A DNA stretch of 64,000 nt from NCBI GenBank assembly GCA_013285405.1, contig CP053446.1:1339985-1403984 (forward strand). Reading direction: 5' to 3'. The notes under the pieces were generated by a model, which did not search any database, was not told where the DNA came from, and saw only the letters and a program-made list of their open reading frames with translations. The position numbers were made by a program, and so were the translations under genes. Within the stretch, counting starts at the first letter, position 1. Each line of letters starts with the position of its first letter. Positions 8,225 to 63,828 of the stretch are shown here, piece after piece. The stretch is from Ignavibacteriota bacterium. GTDB lineage: Bacteria; Bacteroidota; Ignavibacteria; Ignavibacteriales; Ignavibacteriaceae.

Positions 8225-8884
8225 TCATTTTAGCAATATCATCTTCTTAGTATCAAAATATTTTGTGCCGTCTAAACCTTTTGCTTCAACTATGTAAAAG
8301 TAAAAGCCACTGCTGAGGCCTTGCCTGCCGGCAGGCAGGTTATTTGCATTGAAAACTGTTTCGTGTATTCCAACTTTCATTTCTTTGTTTTCAAGCTCTG
8401 TTATTTTTTCACCAAGCACATTGAATAGTTTTATCGAAACAAATGCGTCCTGTGGAATTGAATATTTTATCGTAGTGGTTGGGTTAAATGGATTAGGATA
8501 GTTCTGGTAAACTTCAAAAATCTTTGGTGTTAATATTTTAATATTATATGTTTTAGTAATTACTCCAGCACTACCGTTTGAAATTCTGAATGTGATGCTT
8601 CCTTCTTCACCGATTGGTGCATTCTCTAAGACATTAAATGAAAACTGTGCCGTTTGCTTTTGTAAGGTTTTTATGTTCTCAATATTTACCTGATCATTAT
8701 TAAACTCTATCCATTCGGGTGTCTGTTGAACAGCAACACTTACTAATTGATTTGCACCAATTGATCTATTAGAAAAACTTAATTCAACAAGGTTATTCTT
8801 TGAGCCGGGCAATAGTTCATAAACCGTTTGAGAATAACCTACTGTACAAGCAAGAACAAATAATAAATATTTTAACAGCAGCAT
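8225..8884 (-). CDS. Short secreted protein with T9SS sorting domain (cassette copy 1, third gene)
   Basis: A 219-residue protein with a signal peptide (ending VGYSQ), an Ig-like/cadherin-like middle (FNVLENAPIGEEGSITFRISNGS) and a C-terminal T9SS domain (YQNYPNPFNPTTTIKYSIP). It is highly similar along its whole length to the gene at 11721-12359. The one clear length difference is a seven-residue insertion, LPAGRQG, from a palindromic repeat. The start has a GGAG site. As the last gene of a three-gene unit it could be a surface adhesin or carrier; the function is unknown. Confidence 0.75.
   Translation of the reverse strand: MLLLKYLLFVLACTVGYSQTVYELLPGSKNNLVELSFSNRSIGANQLVSVAVQQTPEWIEFNNDQVNIENIKTLQKQTAQFSFNVLENAPIGEEGSITFRISNGSAGVITKTYNIKILTPKIFEVYQNYPNPFNPTTTIKYSIPQDAFVSIKLFNVLGEKITELENKEMKVGIHETVFNANNLPAGRQGLSSGFYFYIVEAKGLDGTKYFDTKKMILLK
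8317..8339. repeat. In-frame palindromic repeat (encodes LPAGRQG)
   Basis: A GC-rich palindrome, CCTGCCGGCAGG core, lies within the T9SS domain gene. The paralogous gene (around 11810) reads straight through this point, so the insert is 21 bp, seven codons, and keeps frame. Confidence 0.75.
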
Positions 8885-11720: not shown

Positions 11721-12359
11721 TTATTTTAGTAAAATCATCTTCTTCAAATCAAAATATTTTGTGCCGTCCATTCCTTTTGCTTCAACTATGTAAAAATAAA
11801 ATCCACTGCTGAGATTAATTCCATTAAATTCTGTTTCGTGTATCCCAACTTTCATTTCTTTGTTTTCAAGCTCTGTTATTTTCTCACCAAGCACGTTGAA
11901 AATCTTTATAGAGACAAACGCATCCTGCGGAATTGAGTATTTTATTGTTGTCGTCGGATTGAATGGATTTGGATAATTCTGATAGACTTCAAAAACTTCT
12001 GGTGCTATTATTCTAATATTATAGGTTTTAGTAATTACCCCACCACTACCGTTCGAAATTCTGAATGTAATGCTTCCTTCTTCACCAACTTTTGCATTCT
12101 CTGAAACATTAAATGAAAACTGTGCTGTTTGTTTCTGTAAGATTTTTAAGTTCTCAATATTTACCTGATCATTATTAAACTCTATCCATTCAGGTGTCTG
12201 CCGAACAATAACGCTTACTGATTGATTTTCACTTTTTAATTTATTTGAAAAACTTAATTCAACCAGATTATTCTTTGAGCCAGGTAATAGTTCATAAACT
12301 GTTTGAGAATAACCTACAGAACAAACAAGAACAAATAGAAAATATCTTTTAAGCAGCAT
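11721..12359 (-). CDS. Short secreted protein with T9SS sorting domain (cassette copy 2, third gene)
   Basis: A 212-residue paralogue of the gene at 8225-8884. It has the same signal peptide (ending VGYSQ), the same Ig-like middle segment (FNVSENAKVGEEGSITFRISNGS) and the same T9SS domain (YQNYPNPFNPTTTIKYSIP, ending KKMILLK). It lacks the seven-residue palindrome-encoded insert, so it shows the ancestral form. The start is preceded by GGAG. It is 22 bp downstream of the HEAT-like gene, so probably co-transcribed. Confidence 0.75.
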   Translation of the reverse strand: MLLKRYFLFVLVCSVGYSQTVYELLPGSKNNLVELSFSNKLKSENQSVSVIVRQTPEWIEFNNDQVNIENLKILQKQTAQFSFNVSENAKVGEEGSITFRISNGSGGVITKTYNIRIIAPEVFEVYQNYPNPFNPTTTIKYSIPQDAFVSIKIFNVLGEKITELENKEMKVGIHETEFNGINLSSGFYFYIVEAKGMDGTKYFDLKKMILLK

Positions 12360-51860: not shown

Positions 51861-53387
51861 ATGAAATCAATACTCACATCACAATTAAAATCTCCATCAG
51901 GAAAACGGTATCTGATAATATTTCTAATATTATTTCTGAATAGCAAAAGCGGATATGGACAGAATACTGATGCTGGACTTGAAATTGTTCAGTCTGAAAA
52001 CCTTCTTTCTATTGTCCGAACTCTCTGCTCAGAAGAATTTGACGGAAGACTTCCCGGAAGTGAAGGATACAAGAAAGCAGCAAAGTTTGCAGCAGATAAG
52101 TTTGAACAAGCAGGACTAATCCCCGCGGGAGATGAAAAATATTTTCAGTATTTAAATGTAGAATATAACCAGATTGATACGCCGGTTGTTTTTAAAGCGG
52201 TTGTAGCAAAGGAACTTTATTTTTTTCAGCATGGAAAAGATTATGTCTTCAGAGGATTTACCGGATCGGGAAATCTAAACCTGCCGGTTGTATTTTGTGG
52301 ATATGGTATATCAAGACCGGATCTTGGTTATGACGATTATCATGATATAGACGTAACAAACAAAGTAGTTTTAGTTTTCAAACAAAATCCTTCCTGGAAA
52401 ATAAACGATCAACAATGGGGAAATGAAAATCCAAGAGAAAAGTCACAGGTTGCTTTTAAACATGGAGCAAAAGGAATTTTATTTGTTTCTCGTCCAAACG
52501 ACTCCAAACCGCAACCGCTTATAGGAAGCGTACTGCACGGAGACGGAGATCAGCTCGAAGATTTTCCGCAGTTACATGTTTCAATTGATCTTGCAAATGA
52601 TTTGTTGACCGGAACAGGCGTATCAATAAATGAATGTCAAAGTAAGATTGATAGTAATAAAGCACAATTTTCTTTTCACACCGAAAGCAAAGTGGATATT
52701 AAAGTTAAAGCAAATTATGAGAAGAATGCAAAAACTATGAATGTAGTCGGACTCATTGAGGGAACGGATCCGGAACTAAAAGAAGAGTATCTGATAATAG
52801 GCGCACATCTTGACCATGTCGGTTCGCAGGCGGGGCTTTTATTTCCGGGTGCAAACGACAACGCTTCCGGATCAGCGGGTGTTTTGCAGCTTGCTGAAGC
52901 TTTTATGAAAAGCGAATTGAAACCCAAAAGAAATATTCTGTTTGTTCTTTTTGCATCAGAAGAACAAGGCCTTTTAGGATCAAAGTTTTTTGTTGAGAAT
53001 TTAAACCTGCCTGCCGGAAAGGCAGGGATTGATACCAGCAAAATAATTGCAATGTTGAACCTCGATTGTATTGGATATGGAGACAGTATTCAGGTCGGCA
53101 ACGGAAAAAGTTCTCCGGAATTGTGGAAACTTGCGGATGAAATTGACCGGACAAATTCAAATCTTATGGTTAACGATACCTGGAGCGGCGGTGGAGCGGA
53201 TCTCACTCCGTTTTATGAAAAGAATATTCCAGGATTATATTTCGTTTCCCGATACAGCTATGATCACTTGCATCTTCCAACTGACCTGCCAGAAACATTT
53301 AATCTGTCTTTATATAAAAGCATAGTTAAGCTTGTATATTTAACAGCGAGAAAAATAGCAGACGGCAATTACCTGCGGGAAAAATAA
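51861..53387 (+). CDS. Exported M28-family zinc aminopeptidase
   Basis: A 508-residue protein with a signal peptide (residues about 1-34, ending GYGQ), a PA-like insert (residues about 120-250) and the M28 core. Zinc ligands: HLDHVG (His), NDNASGSAG (Asp), SEEQGLLGS (catalytic Glu, ligand Glu), NLDCIGYG (Asp) and DHLHLPTD (His). All are present, so it is likely active in the periplasm or outside. A palindromic repeat adds LPAGKAG in frame before the IDTSKIIAMLN strand. Downstream of the gyrA terminator; 19 bp before the DinB gene. Confidence 0.85.
   Translation: MKSILTSQLKSPSGKRYLIIFLILFLNSKSGYGQNTDAGLEIVQSENLLSIVRTLCSEEFDGRLPGSEGYKKAAKFAADKFEQAGLIPAGDEKYFQYLNVEYNQIDTPVVFKAVVAKELYFFQHGKDYVFRGFTGSGNLNLPVVFCGYGISRPDLGYDDYHDIDVTNKVVLVFKQNPSWKINDQQWGNENPREKSQVAFKHGAKGILFVSRPNDSKPQPLIGSVLHGDGDQLEDFPQLHVSIDLANDLLTGTGVSINECQSKIDSNKAQFSFHTESKVDIKVKANYEKNAKTMNVVGLIEGTDPELKEEYLIIGAHLDHVGSQAGLLFPGANDNASGSAGVLQLAEAFMKSELKPKRNILFVLFASEEQGLLGSKFFVENLNLPAGKAGIDTSKIIAMLNLDCIGYGDSIQVGNGKSSPELWKLADEIDRTNSNLMVNDTWSGGGADLTPFYEKNIPGLYFVSRYSYDHLHLPTDLPETFNLSLYKSIVKLVYLTARKIADGNYLREK
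53006..53027. repeat. In-frame palindromic repeat in the M28 gene (encodes LPAGKAG)
   Basis: CCTGCCTGCCGG followed by AAAGGCAGGG, the same GC-rich family as at 2847 and 8317. It lies between the helix ending KFFVEN and the strand of the active-site domain. Confidence 0.65.
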
Positions 53388-63736: not shown

Positions 63737-63828
63737 GAACGCTGAGCTGCCTGACGGTAGGCAGGTGACGCAGGTTAAGCAGATAAAAAAATCAGTGTAA
63801 ATCAGCCCAATCAGTGTCATCTGCGTTC
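63737..63828. repeat. Intergenic repeat with GAACGC / GCGTTC ends
   Basis: A 92-bp block bounded by GAACGC (63737-63742) and GCGTTC (63823-63828). It contains a degenerate GC-rich palindrome CTGCCTGACGGTAGGCAG (63747-63764) and repeated words ATCAGTGT/AATCAG. It looks like a dispersed intergenic repeat rather than coding DNA. Confidence 0.5.

Follow-up and report, generated by a model that had tools for sequence, protein, structure and literature searches.

A 21-bp palindrome inserted in frame in a T9SS gene of an Ignavibacteriota bacterium belongs to a large family of inserted palindromes

The window analysed here, a 64,000-nucleotide stretch of the genome of an Ignavibacteriota bacterium, contains at positions 8319-8339 (minus strand) a 21-bp palindromic insert, CCTTGCCTGCCGGCAGGCAGG, which is a member of a large family of inserted palindromes. 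It probably represents a mobile palindrome of 20-22 bp that is non-autonomous. Copies of the family occur in genes, where those in frame add seven residues to the protein, as well as in spacers and inside other repeats.

The insert at 8319-8339 and related palindromes in the genome

The minus strand of the insert reads (AA)CCTGCCTGCCGGCAGGCAAGG and is translated as (N)LPAGRQG in ORF 8225-8884 (minus strand), which encodes a 219-aa protein with a C-terminal T9SS type A sorting domain (TIGR04183, 27.4 bits at a cut-off of 23). The added residues fall within this domain, whose presence points to a host among the Bacteroidota. An in-frame addition of LPAGRQG to a T9SS protein had been proposed in the first-pass annotation and was borne out, as was a clean difference of 21 bp, or seven codons, from the paralogue at 11721-12359 (minus strand). 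The paralogue is 83-86% identical to 8225-8884, and its comparison with that gene revealed an empty site: the sequence is CTGCTGAG-G[21]TTATTTG in the filled gene and CTGCTGAG-A TTAATTC in the paralogue, the difference being exactly 21 bp. The insert had been correctly recognized as palindromic, but its span, originally placed at 8317-8339, is corrected here to 8319-8339. No close orthologue of the T9SS gene was found in the relatives; among the more distant sorting domains compared with it, most have no insert and one (L198) has it.

The GC-rich core of the insert had also been said to match intergenic repeats of the window. This holds only in part, as the exact core is unique there: the 12-mer CCTGCCGGCAGG occurs once with up to one mismatch allowed (expected 0.00), and eight times genome-wide (reversed control, 0). 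What the window does contain is relatives with different loops, two of them intergenic (2847-2867 and 63746-63765) and one in a gene (53006-53026). The first, CCTGCCTGCCGGCGAGGCAGG on the plus strand, lies in a larger repeat, GTCATATTGAACGA^AGTGAAATATC. Inspection of 2820-2900 showed that this dispersed repeat (CTTCTGAAAA-TTCTAATTTGTCATATTGAACGA...AGTGAAATATCT) recurs in the genome with the palindrome already inside. The second, GCTGCCTGACGGTAGGCAGG, is slightly degenerate and lies in another hairpin repeat (GACGCAG...). The third, CCTGCCTGCCGGAAAGGCAGG, is 21 bp long and in frame, encoding (N)LPAGKAG on the plus strand of an M28 family peptidase gene (51861-53387, plus strand; Pfam PF04389, E=3e-34).

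A genome-wide count of copies, suggested earlier as a check, gave 62 places in the 3.86 Mb genome for the family CCTGCCT(6-8 nt)AGGCAGG of 20-22 bp (reversed control, 0). The element folds into a GC stem of 7-8 bp with a CCGG-type loop of 4-7 nt, and most of the listed genome copies have a loop of this type. A scan of 264 kb, composed of the window and 20 stretches evenly spaced over the genome, yielded six 21-bp places with up to two stem mismatches. Two seven-residue inserts were observed at separate places of a penicillin amidase family gene in the same genome (L037 2560-2580 and 3190-3210). The palindrome also recurs along with its flanks in tandem arrays, which were seen in the same genome (L029 1501-1980, period 227 bp, three copies) and in a relative (G023:C1:120508-122327, period 450 bp, five copies), while in several MAGs (L066, L067, L061, L156, L078) the palindrome lies within short tandem repeats such as AAATTCGAAATTCG and GGATTTCGGATTTCG.

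Empty sites, reading frame and surroundings of the copies

Comparison of filled and empty DNA sites showed precise insertion of the palindrome, without target-site duplication. A motif present in all orthologues would have to be regarded as ancestral; this check, proposed in the first-pass annotation, was run on the M28 peptidase, valS and purL, and the insert was present in none of the aligned orthologues, even those from the same genus. The seven residues encoded at 53006-53026 are missing in 15 of 15 aligned orthologues of the M28 peptidase. The ValS insert is missing in orthologues from 21 other genomes, which are up to 88% identical and include the same genus, and the PurL insert is missing in all aligned orthologues (67-93% identity), same-genus ones included. 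At the DNA level, the empty sites are GCTGCCGA^TTGTCGG in valS (CCGA^TTG, exactly 21 bp), AATTTAAA^GATTGAC in the M28 gene (TTTAAA^GATTGA, exactly 21 bp) and CCAAAAGA^TATTCAG in purL (AAAGA^TAT, a 20-bp palindrome plus one A). When CarB, UvrA, ValS and an ABC-F protein were compared with solved structures, the insert corresponded to a gap of 7-8 residues. Several spacer copies lie in other repeats of which empty versions were found in the same genome, three examples being CTGAACTTG^TTTCAG, CGAAACAAG^TTCGG and GGACAA^GCCAGAATGAC. No target-site duplication was seen at the empty sites in genes and spacers, apart from a possible 1-bp A in purL. Among the loci compared, no orthologous filled site was common to this genome and its relatives. 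The one shared match, of 48 bp between L180 and L013, turned out to be no more than the common host repeat.

The relation between length and coding status was analysed in a set collected without a fixed length from this genome, its relatives and four further genomes, coding status being judged from ORF length save for genes checked against homologues. In this set, 26 copies of 21 bp were in ORFs and 29 outside, compared with 9 and 52, respectively, for copies of 20 or 22 bp (p=2e-4); more than half of all copies lay outside ORFs. Because 21-bp copies are found in ORFs far more often than 20- and 22-bp ones, the in-frame state is the result of purifying selection on random insertions and not of a protein-coding design. 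The earlier idea of a protein-coding palindromic element was accordingly corrected: copies of 20 and 22 bp exist, mostly outside genes, and the element is not specific to proteins. The palindromes of purL and the ABC-F gene measure 20 bp, yet the protein gap comprises seven residues; therefore, one extra base restored the frame. The common 21-mer has a stop codon in none of its six frames, and its commonest peptide, xLPAG(K/Q/R)(A/Q)G, is flexible. Frame use was uneven, 40 of the 89 ORF copies of 21 bp being in a single one of the six frames (xLPAG(K/Q)AG; p=2e-11), as expected if random insertions are filtered by selection.

When copies were oriented by the loop, purines occupied position -1 in 85-92% of them: 78 of 85 in coding DNA, 49 of 54 in non-coding DNA and 87 of 102 in a second set that overlaps the first (85 + 54). 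The base after the element was unconstrained. Non-coding empty sites fold more stably than nearby DNA (-8.0 vs -5.1 kcal/mol, p=3.5e-6), and coding empty sites show a slight preference for hairpins (p=0.008); a perfect-stem test of hairpin targeting was not significant by rank test, unlike the folding-energy test. Other REPs bear copies in their loops or stems (L411, L427), and copies are also nested within one another, in one case in the loop. The GC skew of the sampled stretches was too noisy for placement of the origin and terminus, and hence for an estimate of replication-strand bias.

Distribution of the family and possible origin of its copies

The motif was found in 16 of the 41 genomes of the close-relative search, this genome included (reversed control, 0), and, across the phylum as a whole, in 43 of 248 species genomes (reversed control, 0 in 248 of 248); two genomes of the same genus (G001, G005) have no copy at all. 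Exact copies are present in Bacteroidota isolates and in records of Patescibacteria, Omnitrophota, Elusimicrobia, Nitrospirae, Planctomycetota, Spirochaetia, Thermodesulfobacteriota and Ignavibacteria. For 25 such genomes, counts reached 78 matches per genome (both strands summed), and the favoured loop varies by genome; isolate records bearing the element include Arenibacter, Marinoscillum, Aequorivita and Salegentibacter. An RPE-like process acting in another phylum had been suggested initially; insertion of palindromes in frame was upheld, but the process extends beyond a single additional phylum. When viral contigs were scanned with the 7-nt loop left free, many chance single matches with unrelated loops were also returned; a 28.8 kb tailed-phage contig (IMGVR_UViG_3300038551_000082) has eight 21-bp copies with a seven-nt loop, several of them inside ORFs (loci L325 2600-3970, L348 1900-3210 and L308 2997-3017). 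Terminase, portal and primase-helicase ORFs are present on this contig. One glucosaminidase-like ORF of the contig apparently contains several inserts, and nesting of copies was also observed on the contig.

Copies are thus inserted precisely and without target-site duplication beside a purine, whether in genes, in spacers, in other hairpin repeats or in the element itself, and some have been amplified secondarily when a larger repeat that contained them was copied (tandem arrays, GTCAT-type hairpins and T9SS sorting-domain modules). Such movement would presumably need a trans-acting enzyme that recognizes hairpins in single-stranded DNA. Enzymes of the Y1/HUH class leave no target duplication and handle hairpins; for these reasons an enzyme of the IS200-IS605/RAYT kind is put forward, tentatively, as the most likely candidate class of mobiliser. 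For an IS200/IS605-type element, no duplication and insertion 3' of a short target are expected; no duplication was seen, and at -1 only a purine.

It is unlikely that the palindrome simply serves a known RAYT (REP-associated Y1 transposase) as its REP and spreads like any other REP. In size and fold it resembles the REPs that accompany RAYTs in these genomes (8-bp stem and 4-nt loop, as in CCTCAACCTTTAGGTTGAGG), target duplications are lacking, and Y1_Tnp genes occur in 36 of 41 genomes of the close-relative search, the copy-free G001 and G005 being also without a Y1_Tnp match. However, the RAYTs studied closely are associated with REPs of their own that differ from it, several genomes (e.g., G013, G021 and G028) have many Y1_Tnp genes but no palindrome, and neither a GTAG nor a CGTC tag is found at the palindrome ends. 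Moreover, the palindrome is present in the stretch around only 5 of 53 Y1_Tnp loci, and the copies in L411 and L427 are inside a REP copy. At none of these 53 loci, from this genome and its relatives, was the palindrome seen to be the gene's own flanking REP; where it lay near such a gene, it was a passenger in other REPs or simply close at hand. Inspection of the same loci gave no support to a RAYT as the cognate mobiliser, and no mobilising gene was identified among them. Y1_Tnp (RAYT-like) genes with their own, different flanking hairpins of ~17-20 bp were observed at L192 1353-2003, L411 718-1418, L426 1331-2248 and L427 1480-1500.

Surroundings rich in hairpins and sometimes in tandem repeats could favour de novo origin of palindromes by local template switch or slippage mutation, but de novo switching would copy local sequence, whereas the same 20-21 nt sequence is found in unrelated genes and phyla between flanks unlike it, which makes this origin very unlikely. 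An assembly, adaptor or library artefact might be suspected of a short, GC-rich palindrome many of whose carriers are metagenome assemblies; it is scarcely conceivable, as the element is found in isolate records and single-contig genomes, its loops differ by genome, its frame is under selection, and exact empty sites exist in relatives.

For the T9SS gene itself, exchange between sorting-domain copies that bear an identical insert is a live alternative. On this reading, which we regard as somewhat doubtful, the copy at 8319-8339 would have been acquired by short-tract exchange (gene conversion) from insert-bearing T9SS sorting-domain sequences and not by fresh insertion of a palindrome. NLPAGRQG, or in one case NLPAGRPG, is located at the same loop in five further sorting domains of this genome and in two of another genus (G007), and all seven inserts have the same orientation and closely match the variant at 8319-8339, with an ...AGGC(A/C)AGG end like that copy, unlike the canonical ...AAGGCAGG. 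However, outside the insert 8225-8884 tracks its paralogue (83-86%), so that the exchanged tract would have to be very short; in the five domains of this genome the insert is preceded by an extra SHSD(E/G)(G/S)Q-like stretch, of which the window gene has none; and this variant is also present, in reverse orientation, in ValS, a protein other than a sorting domain. The SHSD(E/G)(G/S)Q-like stretch looks like another in-frame hairpin repeat, GTCATTCTGACGAAGGTCAGAA. NLPAGRQG inserts were repeatedly observed at NL^LSSG, a loop in T9SS sorting domains (L451 3431-3721, L532, L537, L541, L542, L198 and L545). Either the loop is a hot spot that tolerates insertion, or short exchange has carried the insert from one sorting domain to another.

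Considered as a mobile palindrome, the reading that we prefer, the element could well represent a distinct class of minimal mobile DNA, although we stop short of calling this probable: a hairpin of 20-22 bp with room only for its own fold, near letter-for-letter the same across many phyla and a phage, placed precisely beside a purine with a preference for hairpin-rich DNA by a mobilising enzyme, and repeatedly adding seven residues to essential proteins. If so, it would rank with the smallest known mobile DNA sequences, and the sharing of its sequence across phyla would call for a widespread, transferable mobiliser. The many natural insertions of one peptide in essential enzymes (ValS, PurL, UvrA and CarB) allow the tolerance to insertion and the frame filter to be read directly. 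For annotators, stretches of the LPAGKAG/LPAGRQG type in database proteins are inserts and not conserved motifs, and may mislead alignments.

Comparison with known palindromic elements

No description of the element was found in the searchable literature, most subscription journals being beyond reach: topic searches yielded RPE and REP papers only, and searches for its DNA and peptide strings gave no relevant match, the 12-mer occurring only in two unrelated papers. The window family works like RPEs and intragenic REPs, but departs from them in length, in tag and in cognate RAYT, the last judged on the 53 Y1_Tnp loci of this genome and its relatives.

The RPEs, known from Rickettsia and Wolbachia, are 100-150 bp long (PMC3767692). 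The comparison with them drawn in the first-pass annotation was apt as to the mode of action, since both are repeated palindromic DNA lying in frame in many unrelated genes, absent from homologues and tolerated by the protein, and both are also found outside genes; it does not extend to membership, as the window family is 20-22 bp long and occurs in many phyla. That the Rickettsia-type family itself has reached the present phylum is highly implausible: in-frame inserts do affect housekeeping genes, among them those for aminoacyl-tRNA synthetase and DNA repair, as reported for RPEs (PMC3767692, PMC3733652), but the lengths do not agree, and more than half of the copies collected regardless of length are outside ORFs.

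REPs (GTAG- or CGTC-tagged and RAYT-linked) are palindromes of 20-40 bp, mostly intergenic, with some in ORFs including uvrA and tRNA synthetases (PMC3733652). The window family resembles them in falling within this size range and in its many copies (62 places against none for the reversed control). It differs in having neither tag, the flank table giving only a purine at -1, and no cognate RAYT among the loci inspected, in being near-identical across distant phyla, and in being itself inserted into REPs. MITEs, 70-300 bp in length (PMC3733652), are likewise non-autonomous, dispersed inverted-repeat elements able to fuse into ORFs; however, they normally leave target duplications, whereas the window family leaves none, is only 20-22 bp long and has no autonomous parent element that we could find. 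Palindromes in protein-coding genes are also known from mitochondria. In nematomorphs the repeats are perfect and each arm can reach 142 bp (PMC6649704), compared with 20-22 bp in total here. Those of yeast mitochondria, cited in the same paper, are bypassed in translation, whereas the selection acting on the reading frame of the present element indicates that it is translated within its host proteins.
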